Shown: positions 54,947-63,504 of the stretch, in pieces
Position numbering within the stretch: position 1 is the first letter of the stretch
Layout of the letters: every line of letters starts with the position of its first letter
Assembly: GCA_040183005.1 (NCBI GenBank)
Contig: JAMPIW010000007.1
Coordinates: 310,001 to 374,000, forward strand
DNA length: 64,000 nucleotides
From: Gammaproteobacteria bacterium
GTDB taxonomy: Bacteria > Pseudomonadota > Gammaproteobacteria > Ga0077554 > Ga007554
Reading direction: 5' to 3'
Position numbers and translations under genes: made by a program
Notes under the pieces: model-generated
Told to the model about the DNA's origin: nothing
Databases searched by the model: none
The model's input: the letters and a program-made list of their open reading frames with translations, nothing else

Positions 54947-55363
54947 TCAGACCATATCCTTCAATGCTTTCAATGGCTGAATCTTGACCGCAGTGCTGGC
55001 CGGTTTGGCCTTGAACACCATCTCTTCGCCGGTGAAAGGGTTGACGCCCTTGCGTGCCTTGCGGGCCGGTTTGGTGACGGTTTTGATCTTCACCAGCCCT
55101 GGCAGTGTGAACACCCCGGCAGCACCTTTTTTGATGTGGCGCGCAATCAGGGAGGACAATTCATCCAGCACAGCAGTGGTTTGCTTCTTGGTCAATCCGG
55201 TGTTTTCCGAAATCGTCAACAGCAACTGGGATTTGGTCAAAGGCGCGCGGATAGCGCTTGTGCGGCTGGGGGATGCTGCTACGGTTTTTGTCTTTACGGG
55301 AGCTTTGGCGGCAGGTGCGGCTTTTTTCACTGTCTTGGCGATGCTCTTTTTCTTTACGGCCAT
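54947..55363 (-). CDS. HU/IHF-family DNA-binding protein with Lys/Ala-rich N-terminal tail
   Basis: The 138-residue protein has a basic, low-complexity tail (residues about 1-40, rich in Lys, Ala, Thr and Val). An HU-type domain follows (LTKSQLLLTISENTGLTKKQ; FTLPGLVKIKTVTKPARKARKGVNPFTGE). Usual HU is about 90 residues. Tailed HU proteins resemble histone H1-like tails and may compact the nucleoid more strongly. It has its own terminator. Confidence 0.88.
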   Translation of the reverse strand: MAVKKKSIAKTVKKAAPAAKAPVKTKTVAASPSRTSAIRAPLTKSQLLLTISENTGLTKKQTTAVLDELSSLIARHIKKGAAGVFTLPGLVKIKTVTKPARKARKGVNPFTGEEMVFKAKPASTAVKIQPLKALKDMV

Positions 55364-56751: not shown

Positions 56752-58257
56752 ATGAGTTTTTATCGTCCAAAATCAATTTTAAAACTTATCCTTATAGGGT
56801 TTGTCTTCGTTTCTCTTCCTCTTGTTGTTGCTCTTGTTATCGCGGGGACCTACGTTGACCAGCTGGTTAAGCAAAGCCAGCAGGCGGTGCAGCAGACGGC
56901 TCAAGTCACTAGTGGAAGCAGAATGCTGGTTGAACAGGTTACTACCATGGAGCGAAGCGCCAGGCAGTTCCTGGTATTGGATGATGAGGCCATGTTTGGC
57001 GTATATACCAGCACCCATCAGGATTTTTTGCTAACGGTTGCTAAATTATCACAATTGCCTTTCGATCAAGCGCTCAAGGCAAAGTTGAAAGAATTGGAGA
57101 CAAAAGCGCAAGATTTATTTGCCAAGTTAAGTATCCAGGTTGGCGATAAGACGCAAAGCAAGACGGAAGCGGTGATGGAGTTTGTCACCCTCTCGGAAAT
57201 GGCGCAGGCGTTTTTTACGGAAAGCAGCCGGTTAGTGGATCGCGAAGTGGAGATTCTGCAGGAGACGGCGGGCACCGCTCAGCGCACCCTGTTCTGGCTG
57301 GGCATCGCGCTGGTGCCTCTGGTGGGTGGGCTGATTGGCGTGTTCGCCGTGCTTATTACTAGGCCAATCAATCGTATAGATCAGGCAATCCGCCAGCTGG
57401 GCAATGCCGAATTTTCTACTGCAATTGCCGTGACGGGGCCGCGCGATCTGGAGTCCCTTGGCGAGAGGCTGGATTGGCTGCGGCTACGCCTGATTGAACT
57501 GGAGGAGGAGAAAAACAAATTTTTGAGAAACATTTCACATGATCTAAAGACACCGCTGGCGGCGATTCGCGAAGGCAGTGAATTGCTTGTGGATGAGGTG
57601 GTGGGAAAGCTGACCGATGAGCAGCGTGAAATCGCGCGGATCTTGCGGCAAAACGGCATCCAGCTGCAAATCTTGATCGAGGGCTTGTTGAATTTCAATA
57701 TCGCTAGCGCACGCAGTGCGCAGGTTCAATTCAGCCAGGTGAAATTGCATGAGCTGATTGATAAAGTAATTGAGGACCACAGGCCGGCATTCATGGCAAA
57801 AAGTATCCGCCTGGATAAGAGTTGTGCTGAGTTGGCGGTGGCGGGGGACAGGGAAAGATTGAGGATGATTATCGATAATCTGTTGTCTAACGCTGTCAAC
57901 TATACTCCGCACCAGGGAACAATAATGATACGTCTGAGGAGAATGGAGAGCGCAGGCAAGCAATGCAAGACAGACAATCAGCATGAGGGAGCAGTAAAGC
58001 CGGGCGCCGATGTTGCGGTGCTAGACGTGGCGGATAGCGGTCCCGGTATCAACCCCAGTGAGCGACACAAGGTCTTCGAAACATTTTATCGCGGCAGTAT
58101 CCCCCATGATGGCTATATCAAGGGCACCGGGCTGGGGCTGTCGATTGCAAAAGAATATGTCATGGCACATGGGGGTAGTATTGAACTGGTTGAAGATGGC
58201 ACGCTTGCTAGCGGGGCGCACTTCCGGGTTACATTGCCGGTGGGTGGGGTATCCTGA
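56752..58257 (+). CDS. glrK: Sensor histidine kinase GlrK/QseE-like
   Basis: The 501-residue inner-membrane kinase has segments at about 9-31 and 181-203. They bound a helical periplasmic domain. A HAMP linker (ITRPINRIDQAIRQLG), His263 in NISHDLKTPLAAIREG, and an ATPase domain (NLLSNAVNYTP, DSGPGI, GTGLGLSIAKEY) follow. The downstream lipoprotein and sigma-54 regulator give the glrK-qseG-glrR order known from enterobacteria. The ATG at 56752 is preferred to an upstream frame at 56722. Its stop overlaps the lipoprotein ATG by one base. Confidence 0.9.
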   Translation: MSFYRPKSILKLILIGFVFVSLPLVVALVIAGTYVDQLVKQSQQAVQQTAQVTSGSRMLVEQVTTMERSARQFLVLDDEAMFGVYTSTHQDFLLTVAKLSQLPFDQALKAKLKELETKAQDLFAKLSIQVGDKTQSKTEAVMEFVTLSEMAQAFFTESSRLVDREVEILQETAGTAQRTLFWLGIALVPLVGGLIGVFAVLITRPINRIDQAIRQLGNAEFSTAIAVTGPRDLESLGERLDWLRLRLIELEEEKNKFLRNISHDLKTPLAAIREGSELLVDEVVGKLTDEQREIARILRQNGIQLQILIEGLLNFNIASARSAQVQFSQVKLHELIDKVIEDHRPAFMAKSIRLDKSCAELAVAGDRERLRMIIDNLLSNAVNYTPHQGTIMIRLRRMESAGKQCKTDNQHEGAVKPGADVAVLDVADSGPGINPSERHKVFETFYRGSIPHDGYIKGTGLGLSIAKEYVMAHGGSIELVEDGTLASGAHFRVTLPVGGVS

Positions 58258-58895
58258 TGCGTAGGGTAGGTTTATTCTTGTTGATGACCTTCACGGTTGG
58301 CATTATTCTTGCTGGATGTGAGGCGATAGGGTGGAAACTGGTTAAACAGGAGCATATTGCAAAGCCAGCAGCTCCTGTACCAAAAGATCCTGGCCTTGAA
58401 ATCGCGCCTTTGCTGGCATATTTTCGTTATGCTGCGGGGCTTCCTTCCGATGCGCTTAATAAAGAGAGCGCCCAGGCGGAAAGCGCTTTTAAAGCGAGCC
58501 AGGGTGTTGTCGAGCGGGTTAAGCTCACCATGTTGCTCGGTTTGCTGGGGCCTACCGAAAAACGCGACGAGGCGCGCGCGCAACGGTTGCTGGAAGGTTA
58601 TCTGAATGACGACACGGCAACAAGCAGCGAAACGCTCAAGGATTATGCCGCTTTCCTGCGTGGCGTTATTATTGAGCAAAAAGGCCTTAGAGAGCGTAAT
58701 AATGTGCTTGAGACAGAGAGGCGGGGGCTTAGGGAGCGTAACAGCGTGCTTGAGACCGAGCAAAAGGGTTTGAAAGAACGTTATAACGCCCTCGAAGATA
58801 AACTGCGCGAGGAAACCGCGCGCGCGGACAATTTGCAGGGTAAGCTTGACACTCTCAAGGCGATTGAATCAAGTATCCTTAAACGGAAGAGATAG
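58257..58895 (+). CDS. QseG/GlrF-like outer-membrane lipoprotein with coiled coil
   Basis: The 212-residue product has a lipoprotein signal with lipobox LAGC (Cys about residue 21), a helical central domain, and a C-terminal coiled coil from about 140 to 205. There, a near-perfect repeat (LRERNNVLETERRG, LRERNSVLETEQKG, LKERYNALEDKLRE) appears three times. In E. coli the gene between glrK and glrR encodes QseG, a lipoprotein that activates the kinase. Position, not strong sequence likeness, is the main support. Confidence 0.75.
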   Translation: MRRVGLFLLMTFTVGIILAGCEAIGWKLVKQEHIAKPAAPVPKDPGLEIAPLLAYFRYAAGLPSDALNKESAQAESAFKASQGVVERVKLTMLLGLLGPTEKRDEARAQRLLEGYLNDDTATSSETLKDYAAFLRGVIIEQKGLRERNNVLETERRGLRERNSVLETEQKGLKERYNALEDKLREETARADNLQGKLDTLKAIESSILKRKR

Positions 58896-58905
58896 CACGG
58901 TACAT

Positions 58906-60306
58906 ATGAATACGGCAAAGAAAAAAGTAATGGTAGTGGATGACGATCCTGGCTTGCTGCGGCTGATCGATATTCGCCTTAAAACGGCGGGCTACGATGT
59001 GATTACCGCCGAAAGCGGCGAGCAGGCGCTTGCCAAAATGACGGTGTCCCGCCCCGGCGTAGTCATTACCGATCTGCGTATGGGCGGGATGAGCGGAATG
59101 GAGCTTTTTGAAAAACTCCATGACCGCGATCCTACCCTGCCGGTTATCATTCTCACTGCTCACGGCTCCATCCCGGATGCGGTCGATGCGATGAAAAGCG
59201 GTGCCTACAGTTTTCTCACCAAGCCCTATGACAGCAAAACCCTGCTTGATCATGTTGAGCGCGCATCGAGGCTGAGCGGAGATCACCCCCATGCCGAGCC
59301 TTCTTACAATCGCGATACCGCCTGGCGGGCGGAGATCATCACCCGCAGCGCCCTGATGGAAGACTTGTTAAGCCAGGCATGGTTGGTGGCAAACAGTGAT
59401 GCCAGTGTATTTATTCACGGGGATAGTGGTACGGGAAAGGAGCTGCTGGCCAAGGCGATTCATAAGGCCAGCCCCCGTAACACCAGGCCTTTTGTTGCGA
59501 TCAATTGCGCCGCGATGCCTGAAACATTGCTGGAGTCGGAGCTATTCGGATACGCCAAGGGCGCATTCTCGGGCGCGGTTAAAAATCACAAGGGCTTGTT
59601 TGAAGCGGCGCATCAAGGGACGTTGTTCCTGGATGAAATAGGGGACATGCCGCTCGCATTTCAGGCAAAGCTTCTCAGGGTGTTGCAGGAAAGGGTCGTG
59701 CGTCCCGTCGGCGCCACTCAGGGCGTGGAGGTGGATGTCAGGGTCATTTCGGCTTCGCACCGCAATCTGGATGAACAGATGGCGAAGGGCGATTTCCGTG
59801 AGGATTTGTACTACCGTTTGAATGTGGTCACCCTGGATTTGCCGACACTGGCGCTGCGGCGTGAGGATATCCCCTTGCTGGCTTCCCGGTTTCTGGCGCA
59901 GCTTGCTGAAAAAAACAAGAAAAAACTGGATGGATTCGCCCCTGATGCGATGGAGCTGCTGGTCACTGCGCCTTGGCCAGGCAATGTGAGGCAGCTATAC
60001 AACGTCGTGGAACAAACTGTCGCGTTGTCCGCCACGCCGATCATCCCGGCAAAGCTCGTGCAGAAAGCGCTCCGTGACAAACCGGCCGATATTCCTTCCC
60101 TGGTGGAGGCGAAAAGCCGCTTTGAGCGCGAATATCTTGCGCAATTGCTGCAAATCACTAACGGTAGCGTCACCCAGGCGGCGCGCCTGGCTAAACGCAA
60201 TCGCACGGAATTTTACAAGCTACTGCATCGCCACCATCTTGACCCCTCCCTTTTTAAGCCCGCCGCTGTATCAGCCACGGAGCTTCCGGAAAAGCTCCAT
60301 ACTTGA
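58906..60306 (+). CDS. glrR: Sigma-54-dependent response regulator GlrR
   Basis: The 466-residue NtrC-family activator has a receiver domain with Asp56 (VITDLRMGGMSG), an AAA+ domain with GDSGTGKELLAKAI, GAFSGA in place of the usual GAFTGA sigma-54 contact loop, and LFLDEIGDMPL. A C-terminal Fis-type helix-turn-helix follows (GSVTQAARLAKRNRTEFYKLL). The unusual NRTEFYKLL ending is typical of GlrR. The ATG at 58906 is used; a frame to 58846 overlaps the lipoprotein gene. A candidate target promoter lies at 60808. Confidence 0.92.
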   Translation: MNTAKKKVMVVDDDPGLLRLIDIRLKTAGYDVITAESGEQALAKMTVSRPGVVITDLRMGGMSGMELFEKLHDRDPTLPVIILTAHGSIPDAVDAMKSGAYSFLTKPYDSKTLLDHVERASRLSGDHPHAEPSYNRDTAWRAEIITRSALMEDLLSQAWLVANSDASVFIHGDSGTGKELLAKAIHKASPRNTRPFVAINCAAMPETLLESELFGYAKGAFSGAVKNHKGLFEAAHQGTLFLDEIGDMPLAFQAKLLRVLQERVVRPVGATQGVEVDVRVISASHRNLDEQMAKGDFREDLYYRLNVVTLDLPTLALRREDIPLLASRFLAQLAEKNKKKLDGFAPDAMELLVTAPWPGNVRQLYNVVEQTVALSATPIIPAKLVQKALRDKPADIPSLVEAKSRFEREYLAQLLQITNGSVTQAARLAKRNRTEFYKLLHRHHLDPSLFKPAAVSATELPEKLHT

Positions 60307-60446: not shown

Positions 60447-60471
60447 GTAGGGTGCGTTCCACGTACCCTAC
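60447..60471. repeat. Short palindromic repeat (GTAGGGTGCG type)
   Basis: GTAGGGTGCGTTCCACGTAC followed by CCTAC: a shortened relative of the perfect palindrome behind lolA (44429-44479), with GTAGGGT/ACCCTAC arms intact. Confidence 0.6.
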
Positions 60472-60617
60472 AACATCATTGTCGTTTTTAACGCAAATTG
60501 GAATTAGATACCGACCCAAGTGTTGCTGAAAGCATCCTTCGGCAATGGTTTCGATCTCCCCAGACGGTTCAGTATCCCAGCCCTTTGAGAAACCGCAATT
60601 ATTCAAAAAACGTTTGC

Positions 60618-60635
60618 CGTCTCTATCCTGAGACA
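60618..60635 (+). promoter_or_regulatory. Candidate GlrR upstream activating site
   Basis: CGTC-N10-GACA, one mismatch from the GlrR motif TGTC-N10-GACA known from glmY regulation. It lies about 175 bp upstream of the sigma-54 promoter at 60808, a normal distance for an enhancer site. An AT-rich tract (about 60760-60806) lies between, suited to DNA bending. Confidence 0.5.
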
Positions 60636-60807
60636 GTCTAACGTATTGTAAGTAAATGCCTTTATATAATTCCTGACAATGCTGTAGCTGTATAACAACG
60701 CATCACCCCCGACTTTGCGAGTGCCTCATGGATTGGACCTGATTAAGTCGTGGCGGACATTTATTAACACATTGATATTTATATTAAATAATATTTTATA
60801 TAATACA

Positions 60808-60823
60808 TGGCATGACGATTGCT
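60808..60823 (+). promoter_or_regulatory. Sigma-54 promoter
   Basis: TGGCATGACGATTGCT fits the TGGCAC-N5-TTGCA consensus, with GG (60809-60810) and GC (60821-60822) exactly ten bases apart. Transcription would begin near 60834, about 124 bp before the EF-hand gene. It lies downstream of the sigma-54 activator gene glrR. Confidence 0.7.
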
Positions 60824-60833
60824 TTAGCTTCAT

Positions 60834-60957
60834 TGCAGGGTGAAAATTCCCAGGGACGGGCCAAGGATGGAGCCTGATAATATGCTGGAAAAAAGTTGCT
60901 TCGCGGCTTTTTTCAGCAAGGTTACCAAGATGTCGATGAGTAATGGAGGGGTTGATG
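60834..60957 (+). ncRNA. Structured leader or possible small RNA under sigma-54 control
   Basis: The predicted transcript contains a stem TGCTGGAAAAAAG (60882-60894) with CTTTTTTCAGCA (60906-60917), bulged by one G, and an inner GC pair. TTTTTT lies within the stem, so this could end a short RNA or fold a leader before the EF-hand gene. Homology to GlmY is not claimed. Confidence 0.3.
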
Positions 60958-61239
60958 ATGTACAACAGGGAAAATATGCTGCTGAATGTGGCGCTGGCAG
61001 GGCTGCTTGCTTTGTCGGGTGCTGCGTTTGCTCAAGGAATGCTTGGTGAGGCAGAGAATGCCGCACCGGATCTTGTCAAGGTCGATACGGATGCCGATGG
61101 TTTTGTCACTCTAAATGAGGCGAAACAAGTGAAAGGTCTGCCGGAGGCTTTTGGCCAGGCAGACAAGAATTCGGATGGAAAACTTGATGGCTCAGAGTTC
61201 GAGGCGGCAGTCAAGGCAATGCAAAGCTCGGGTAGTTAA
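60958..61239 (+). CDS. Exported EF-hand protein
   Basis: The 93-residue protein has a signal peptide cleaved near AAFA|QG (about residue 25) and two EF-hand loops, DTDADGFVTLNEA and DKNSDGKLDGSEF, with the expected acidic ligands. It probably binds calcium in the periplasm. Of two adjacent ATGs, 60958 is best placed after GGAGGGG (60945-60951). It lies under the sigma-54 promoter and ends before a strong terminator. Confidence 0.85.
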   Translation: MYNRENMLLNVALAGLLALSGAAFAQGMLGEAENAAPDLVKVDTDADGFVTLNEAKQVKGLPEAFGQADKNSDGKLDGSEFEAAVKAMQSSGS

Positions 61240-61340: not shown

Positions 61341-61369
61341 AACGCGGCTGCGAGGCCGCGTTTTTTTTT
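61341..61369 (+). terminator. Rho-independent terminator after the EF-hand gene
   Basis: AACGCGGC (61341-61348), loop TGCGAG, GCCGCGTT, then nine T (61361-61369 overlapping the arm). This is the clearest terminator in the window. Confidence 0.9.
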
Positions 61370-61557
61370 GCACAGAAAAAAGCCTTGGAAAAGCACCTGT
61401 TTTCTCCCTGAACGCTAAAGTACTTGTGAATAAATGCCGATGTTTAGCGATGAGGTAAAACCTCCGTCTGGATGCTGAATCAACATCGCAAGGTATTCGG
61501 CTAACCTGTAATCATTGGTGAGCACCTTTCACTTACATAGCACATCAGGCCAAGGAA

Positions 61558-63504
61558 ATGACGCACAATAGCCATTCAACCCAATCACATGATTACACTG
61601 ATCCCGCAGGGAAGCGCGCATTTCAGCGTTATCCTGTAGATCTGCATGCGTTTATCAGAGCTTCAGGCGATTTACGTATACCATGCGTCATACGTAATTT
61701 CTGCATCGGCGGCATGTTTATAAGTTATCGGCACTCGGCTGGTATTGAGGCGTTGTCGCAAGGATGTTTTCCTGCTGCCGGCGATGTTATTGCCATCCAT
61801 TGCGTTGTCCCAACAACAAACCAAAGTAACCGGCTGCAATTCCAGGCACGTGTCGTCCGTGTTTTTGAAGGTGGCGTGGGTATAGCGTTCATTAATCCTA
61901 ACCCGGCTGCTTTGCGGGTTATGCAAGACTTTTCCTTACAGTCAGGCAATGAGGTGTTGAGCGGACAACCGAAGCCTGATGAGATTATAAAGGAATGTAA
62001 TCGTGTGATTGAAGATACGCTTGGTGTCATCACCAAAAGCGTGAACTCAAAAATGTCGAATCGCATGTTTGAGCTATCCCGTGATACAAGAAATCATAAG
62101 GAACAGAATGCATATTTTAATGCGTGCGACATTTTGAGTCGATCATCCGAAATTTTGGCGGGCCTTTTTCGCGCTGCCGTTCATGAGAGACTGATAAAAC
62201 TTGGGCCCGATAAAATGAGGGTGAAACTGAGTGCGAAATCTGATAAGAACGGTCTTTCCACGCCCGAATTGTCCCTTATCGGAGATGAAGCGCTGACCGA
62301 ATGGTTGTCTGTTTCTGATATTAATTATAGCGTTACATCTAAGCACAAGAAATTGCTCGTTGCGATAGAACAACGCATTTCCATAGTGTTGAATGTACGC
62401 ATCGGTGAAGATAACAACCCTTATGCCCCCGGACTCTTTACAGAGTCTTTCTTGATAGCTATTAAAAGCCTTGACCTGGATCCTATAGTCAACACAGCCT
62501 GTCTCGCGATTTTCAAGGATGTGTTTATCGAAAAATCATCCGATCTTTACGCGAGTCTCGACACTGTCCTGGTGGATTTCGGCGTATTGCCCGATCTAAA
62601 GCTAAAGCACAAGGTGCTTTGGGGAAGTACGTCATCGCGAGCTGGTGTGCAGTCTCCGAATGCCCGTGGAGATGCCGACACGGCAGGGCGCAATCTATAC
62701 CAGGTCGCTCACGAGATACGCAAACTCCGAGAAGAAATCGCTCAACAGATTTCTCGTCAAGCTGAAACTCCGCCTGTAACACAGGGTGACGCATCGCGAT
62801 CAACGCAGATGCCTGATCAAGTGTACACAGCCTCTGATGTAATATCGGCTTTGGCCCGCTTGCAGGCGGATCACAGTGTACGTATCGCAGGCAGTAACGA
62901 GCCCACAAATATCAAGGATCGCGTCCTCTCCATTCTGGAAGGCATTAATCCAGAAAGCGCCCATAAAGAGATCAGTGCACACGACAGCAGTATCATGAAT
63001 GTCGCTGGCGACCTGTTTCGTGCTGTTCAGAGTGATTCGCTCGTGGCTGACAGCGTTAGGCCTTGGCTCAAGCGTCTTGAATTGCCCATTCTCAGGCTTA
63101 CGCTTGAGGACAATGCGGTGTTTCTTGACAGGACTCATGTCGCACGCCAAGTACTAAACAAGATTGCCCAACTGGAAATTCATGACGACGAACTTGCGAG
63201 CTCCAGCCAAAGCGCCATTAGGAGCACGATTGATCGCCTGATAGACCGGATCAACAATGAGTTCGATGGGACCACTGATGTATTTGAGAAAATCCTTATA
63301 CAGCTGGACAGGCTAACTGAAATCCAGGATAAGGCCTATGCAGAAAATTTGAAGGATGTGATCACGGCGTGTGAACAAAACATCGTGGCTGCGGAATCGG
63401 GAGATGAGCCTGAAAGAGAGGAAGCAGGTTGTAATGTGGGAAAAATGGTTGAAGCAAGCACGCCGCCTCAAGGAGGGCGACTGGGTATTGTTTTTGACCA
63501 GTGA
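61558..63504 (+). CDS. PilZ and DUF1631 protein
   Basis: The 648-residue protein starts with a PilZ domain (RAFQRYPVDLHAFIRASG; IRNFCIGGMFISY, residues about 18-130). A long helical DUF1631 region follows (about 145-620), with MSNRMFELSRDTRNHKEQ and NVAGDLFRAVQSDSLVADSV. PilZ domains bind cyclic-di-GMP; DUF1631 has no known activity. The last 24 residues (from about 63434) are read in a different frame from a stretch that looks like the DUF1631 C-terminus (LKEGDWVLF), so the gene may have been split by a frameshift. No ribosome-binding site is obvious. Confidence 0.82.
   Translation: MTHNSHSTQSHDYTDPAGKRAFQRYPVDLHAFIRASGDLRIPCVIRNFCIGGMFISYRHSAGIEALSQGCFPAAGDVIAIHCVVPTTNQSNRLQFQARVVRVFEGGVGIAFINPNPAALRVMQDFSLQSGNEVLSGQPKPDEIIKECNRVIEDTLGVITKSVNSKMSNRMFELSRDTRNHKEQNAYFNACDILSRSSEILAGLFRAAVHERLIKLGPDKMRVKLSAKSDKNGLSTPELSLIGDEALTEWLSVSDINYSVTSKHKKLLVAIEQRISIVLNVRIGEDNNPYAPGLFTESFLIAIKSLDLDPIVNTACLAIFKDVFIEKSSDLYASLDTVLVDFGVLPDLKLKHKVLWGSTSSRAGVQSPNARGDADTAGRNLYQVAHEIRKLREEIAQQISRQAETPPVTQGDASRSTQMPDQVYTASDVISALARLQADHSVRIAGSNEPTNIKDRVLSILEGINPESAHKEISAHDSSIMNVAGDLFRAVQSDSLVADSVRPWLKRLELPILRLTLEDNAVFLDRTHVARQVLNKIAQLEIHDDELASSSQSAIRSTIDRLIDRINNEFDGTTDVFEKILIQLDRLTEIQDKAYAENLKDVITACEQNIVAAESGDEPEREEAGCNVGKMVEASTPPQGGRLGIVFDQ

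Follow-up and report, generated by a model that had tools for sequence, protein, structure and literature searches.

A GlrR/sigma-54-type promoter behind a glrK–glrR-like operon is likely to serve the gene of an exported EF-hand protein

The question raised by this locus is which product a GlrK/GlrR-type two-component system controls from the promoter-like DNA directly behind its own operon. To our knowledge, work on GlrR (QseF) has been confined almost entirely to enterobacteria, in which two outputs are established, rpoE and the small RNA GlmY; in E. coli, glmY lies upstream of glrK. The E. coli regulator binds TGTN12ACA sites with the help of IHF, activating the sigma-54 promoters of glmY and rpoE, and QseG activates the kinase QseE (PMC6075780). 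For the window, i.e., the whole stretch of 64,000 nucleotides analysed here, a sequence-only reading had proposed that the local target is a small RNA, an EF-hand protein, or both. Our analysis favours the protein: we consider it likely that the promoter is the cognate output of the adjacent glrK-(QseG-like)-glrR system and yields the mRNA of an exported EF-hand protein, with a leader that is probably controlled by CsrA as well. The operon itself consists of the following genes:

56752 to 58257, plus strand: glrK/qseE-like sensor histidine kinase with HAMP, HisKA and HATPase_c domains; start at the ATG of MSFYRPKS, set by sequence
58257 to 58895, plus strand: putative QseG-like lipoprotein with lipobox LAGC and a coiled-coil-like C-terminus
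58906 to 60306, plus strand: glrR/qseF-like response regulator with a sigma-54 activation domain (NF011695 and Pfam domains)

Among 113 families, the response regulator matched NF011695 best, with 619.6 bits over nearly its full length (residues 4–451) compared to 402 bits for the runner-up; this score is below the equivalog cut-off of 763 (NCBI), which was passed in only one of 369 genomes of the class. The protein contains a receiver and a sigma-54 interaction domain (Pfam), and its kinase is encoded within the same operon; a kinase match was found at 92 of 96 glrR loci. The lipoprotein ORF showed no family match in Pfam, NCBIfam or PDB and is tentatively assigned as QseG-like from its operon position and lipobox. 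The genome also carries genes for RpoN, CsrA and RapZ. Elsewhere in the window, a gene upstream of ruvB (54947–55363, minus strand) codes for an HU/IHF-like protein, named by eye, whose N-terminal tail is rich in Lys and Ala. A DUF1631 protein that carries a PilZ domain at its N-terminus is encoded at 61558–63504 (plus strand) and is followed by an ORF with a GGDEF-like sequence recognised by eye (from about 63434 onward, plus strand).

Behind glrR, the intergenic DNA contains the following elements:

60618 to 60635, no strand assigned: GlrR-type upstream activating site CGTCTCTATCCTGAGACA
60687 to 60699, no strand assigned: near-palindrome GCTGTATAACAAC, genus-conserved in the alignment, between activator site and promoter
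60765 to 60777, plus strand: consensus match for IHF, TAACACATTGATA, lying between the activator site and the promoter
60808 to 60823, plus strand: sigma-54 −24/−12 promoter TGGCATGACGATTGCT with full consensus

The sigma-54 promoter with exact spacing that had been proposed earlier was borne out, and it is kept in all same-family relatives having the module. It represents the single match of TGGCNYRNNNNTTGCW within the 64 kb; because shuffling expects 0.70 such matches and the pattern occurs 24 times genome-wide vs. 20 times for the reversed control, the motif by itself is not significant. The GlrR-like site was likewise recovered as CGTC-N10-GACA, with one mismatch to TGTC-N10-GACA, and forms the palindrome GTCTC-N6-GAGAC with perfect 5-bp arms; such a one-mismatch site is expected by chance once per few kb. 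Its start lies 190 bp upstream of the promoter, which roughly agrees with the previous estimate of about 175 bp. No second, proximal activator site was found in the window, where the lone site occupies the distal position, while most other loci have two. The near-palindrome, which is perfect as GTTGTATAACAAC in the relatives L003 and L007, was rejected as a second activator site because it does not match the consensus. The IHF site is the sole match in 64 kb, which equals the shuffled expectation, and the consensus is also matched in L003, L007, L010 and L011. The region originally delimited (60447–61239) starts too early, as we found nothing conserved in 60447–60617, whereas the remainder was confirmed.

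Since the single motifs are near chance level, the strength of the case comes from their conservation in relatives and from class-wide statistics. Palindrome, promoter and EF-hand gene are kept in five relatives (L003, which continues the broken contig L008, L007, L010, L009 and L011) within intergenic DNA that has largely diverged, L009 and L011 aligning with little else upstream. Orthologues of the EF-hand protein are present in seven of the eight family genomes. In genome G004, the closest EF-hand gene (L240) and glrR are located on different contigs; L240 nonetheless keeps activator site and promoter, with its own CGTCTCCAAAAAGAGACA and TGGCACGCCCTTTGCT, together with a leader containing three CsrA-consensus sites. 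Judged from these sequences, the module travels with the EF-hand gene even away from glrR. Site and promoter stay with the gene in the relatives, a check suggested by the sequence-only reading, except for a second, more distant paralogue in G004 (L241), which is without activator site.

The predicted transcript comprises the following features:

60834 to 60957, plus strand: predicted mRNA 5′ leader of 124 nt, its putative start placed 12 bases past the −12 C
60851 to 60858, plus strand: CsrA/RsmE consensus site CAGGGACG, invariant in five genomes, with a possible CCC-AGGGAC-GGG hexaloop
60862 to 60869, plus strand: CsrA/RsmE consensus site CAAGGATG
60884 to 60917, plus strand: leader hairpin GCTGGAAAAAAGTTGC-TTC-GCGGCTTTTTTCAGC, genus-conserved with compensatory changes
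60945 to 60951, plus strand: Shine-Dalgarno sequence GGAGGGG, which includes a GGA
60958 to 61239, plus strand: exported 93-aa protein with two EF loops (PF00036, 36.3 bits vs. cut-off 25.4)
61341 to 61370, plus strand: intrinsic terminator AACGCGGC-TGCGAG-GCCGCGTT with T-run from the terminator scan, predicted transcript end

The ORF most likely starts at the ATG at 60958 (MYNRENM, common to the orthologues) and not at 60943. The protein carries a signal peptide (AFA|Q) and the canonical EF loops DTDADGFVTLNE and DKNSDGKLDGSE, which predict calcium binding and nothing beyond it; a link between envelope sensing and calcium, as suggested in the sequence-only reading, is putative. Like lanmodulin and further exported EF-hand proteins of bacteria, the protein has a signal peptide and EF loops, but membership in the lanmodulin family was rejected, as only two loops are present and the NF053806 score of 30.4 bits compares to a cut-off of 135.

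We propose that phosphorylated GlrR would bind the palindrome about 190 bp upstream of the promoter, that IHF would bend the DNA between activator site and promoter, and that sigma-54 RNA polymerase would start at about 60834 and produce a monocistronic mRNA, about 540 nt long, that encodes the two-EF-hand protein and ends at the terminator near 61370. With CsrA binding at the two tandem GGA sites, the response to the envelope signal would be overlaid by control according to growth phase. Transcription of the EF-hand gene via GlrR and sigma-54 appears very likely from the comparative data; the lone activator site with its mismatch and the score of GlrR below the NF011695 cut-off speak against it. 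We rate the promoter as a variation on the known GlrR/QseF regulon that would work like that of glmY with a different product. It shares with the enterobacterial GlrK/QseG/GlrR (QseE/QseG/QseF)-glmY system the three-gene order (here with a putative QseG-like gene), a TGTN12ACA-type site, a predicted role of IHF and an adjoining sigma-54 promoter (PMC6075780). It differs by an activator site that is one base off and by its predicted output, the mRNA of an exported EF-hand protein downstream of glrR, where enterobacteria have a small RNA gene in front of glrK. Similarly, the GlrR-dependent P2 promoter of E. coli rpoE combines a sigma-54 promoter and GlrR sites before the gene of an envelope-relevant protein (PMC6075780), although its target is different and it does not adjoin glrKR.

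The leader contains two CANGGANG sites with starts 11 nt apart, which are kept in the window, L003, L007, L010 and L009; at the second site, the free positions differ (CAAGGATG in the window, CAAGGACG in L003 and L007, CATGGATG in L009); the leader of L011 has ANGGA matches only. The pair has a shuffle P of about 7e-4, and nine such pairs occur genome-wide vs. one for the reversed pattern. The number of sites yielded dinucleotide-shuffle P values of ≤ 0.004 in each of five leaders (window, L007, L010, L009 and L240), which are related sequences with P values that are not independent. The core of the sites could fold into CC-ANGGAN-GG hexaloops, which RsmE is known to bind (PMC7652899), but the minimum-energy folds do not show both GGA hexaloops; in L240, the GGA of the second site is 79% unpaired. 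The strong stem expected ahead of the exported EF-hand ORF is indeed present. Among four sequences, its lower stem shows changes on both sides at three pairs (C-G/U-A, U-A/C-G, G-U/C-G) and its top one compensatory pair (C-G/U-A); as the MAFFT alignment misplaced the lower stem, the base pairs were matched manually using the structure of each sequence, which biases the result towards structure. A translated upstream ORF spanning the leader was rejected because the reading frame is lost between the window and L010. In L003, an inverted-repeat insertion of about 140 bp (MITE/REP-like, about 558–698) separates the leader hairpin from the Shine-Dalgarno sequence that precedes the EF-hand gene.

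Because of the two tandem CsrA-type GGA sites and the conserved hairpin, CsrA probably also sets translation or stability of the mRNA; taken by itself, the prediction that the leader is under CsrA control at either level has about even chances. The arrangement resembles CsrA-repressed leaders such as that of glgC, with GGA motifs in short upstream hairpins and in the Shine-Dalgarno sequence (PMC7652899), although here it is predicted and combined with a GlrR/sigma-54 promoter. In leaders of other families, five CsrA sites were found in 4200 nt, and the EF-hand leaders of most other families have none; the sites were rejected as a common feature.

Alternatively, the actual product might be a small RNA of about 85 nt that ends at the stem at 60884–60917 and either sequesters CsrA in the manner of RsmX/RsmY or works as GlmY does, with expression of the EF-hand gene by read-through; we regard this as unlikely. 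The combination of two or three CsrA sites and, behind them, a strong U-run-bearing stem does resemble Rsm/Csr decoy RNAs, and terminator-ended non-coding stretches exist behind the same promoter in other lineages. A weak Rfam match to rsmX at 60823–60913 (E 0.57) reached 15.1 bits vs. a gathering score of 56 for RF02144 and is missing from the relatives, so the rsmX identity was rejected. The stem was also rejected as a terminator, as the terminator scan was negative and the U-run is lost in L003; in L009, the stem itself is absent. RF00128 (GlmY/GlmZ) gave no match in the window and at best 11.8 bits vs. a gathering score of 33 in the genome, so that no GlmY/GlmZ-like RNA offered a candidate region for pairing with glmS. 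Moreover, all same-family members having the module retain the EF-hand gene downstream of the promoter, and no convincing separate promoter for it was found. Of the targets originally considered, the EF-hand protein is supported by comparative sequence, and the GlmY-like small RNA is not. We hold it similarly improbable that the transcript is dual, with a GlrR-induced leader titrating enough CsrA to couple the envelope signal with the global Csr network and an EF-hand protein encoded on the same RNA, and with a stand-alone small RNA made from the same promoter in related lineages; RNA and protein could then replace or accompany each other as the output of a single, ancient GlrR slot.

The preferred reading, an mRNA controlled by GlrR, was further assessed with 77 glrR loci and 19 from named records, of which 91 were left after duplicate removal; their selection was based on GlrR similarity, and they are not entirely independent. 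In the 730 bases that surround and follow the glrR end, exact TGTC-N10-GACA occurred 40 times in 30 of the 91 loci, whereas the other spacers (N4–N9 and N11–N16) gave zero to three occurrences each in the same regions. The sites are often paired at a distance of 63–70 bp, with a sigma-54 element 68–113 bp past the proximal one. Among the 39 loci that have both site and promoter, 18 are followed by an EF-hand gene, compared to 2 of the 52 others (Fisher P 1.3e-6). In a search of 369 genomes that was blind to glrR, a composite pattern combining two sites with a sigma-54 core gave 15 matches vs. none for the reversed pattern, six of them preceding EF-hand genes (L245, L251, L253, L254, L255 and L257). 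The EF-hand protein is the commonest recognisable local GlrR output, occurring in about ten GTDB families. The GlrR system thereby gains a likely widespread protein output, which in L255 and L257 is encoded directly upstream of glrK, exactly at the position of E. coli glmY, and its envelope signal becomes testable through one gene. Other local outputs, named by eye from sequence, are glycine-zipper proteins (L014, L015, L017, L021, L022), glucan-biosynthesis-type proteins (L179, L186) and acyltransferases (L149, L175). QseF-like activators have been listed among sigma-54 regulators of the bacterial exterior by Francke et al. (2011), in a text containing neither "calcium" nor "EF hand" (PMC3162934). 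In the open-access literature searched, which leaves subscription journals mostly uncovered, we found no paper tying GlrR, or sigma-54 with a response regulator, to EF-hand proteins; the pairing, recurring in many bacteria, provisionally seems undescribed.

The promoter could also be real but mainly driven by another sigma-54 activator using the same site, e.g., a PrsR-type regulator of PEP-CTERM systems, which might use similar sites. Consistent with this, composite-pattern matches also precede acyltransferase-like genes, and the same genome, whose own GlrR regulon was sampled by pattern searches only, has a second pair of TGTC-N10-GACA and, 85 bp behind it, a sigma-54 element (L103; G000:C7:490381-490396, minus strand) in an apparent polysaccharide cluster. 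This pair precedes the gene of an exported repeat-type protein; a glycosyltransferase gene of WecG/TagA-like type is nearby. Sites clustered beside a regulator gene are the usual sign of the cognate regulator, and in many GTDB families the sites do cluster beside glrR or glrK, which makes a different activator very improbable. Chance motifs in front of a gene transcribed from an ordinary sigma-70 promoter can be practically dismissed: each motif singly is near expectation and a sigma-70-like pair exists at 60764–60792, itself at chance level, but the conservation within diverged intergenic DNA and the class-wide statistics contradict this explanation.

The sequence-only reading is extended here by the IHF site, the two CsrA-consensus sites in tandem, the double-site architecture seen across the class and the terminator-ended non-coding stretches elsewhere. 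The latter occur downstream of glrR in L150, L157, L193 and L196, where GlrR sites and a sigma-54 promoter are followed by a strong intrinsic terminator 108–175 nt past the start, and in the similar locus L144, with the terminator at 313 nt; these five stretches contain no convincing ORF before the terminator and gave no Rfam match, and they represent candidates for GlrR-driven small RNAs. In L013, L016, L156 and L165, the EF-hand targets carry a fused, longer C-terminal part resembling a BON domain by eye. In L245 (G315), one double-site GlrR/sigma-54 promoter precedes two different exported EF-hand genes in tandem.
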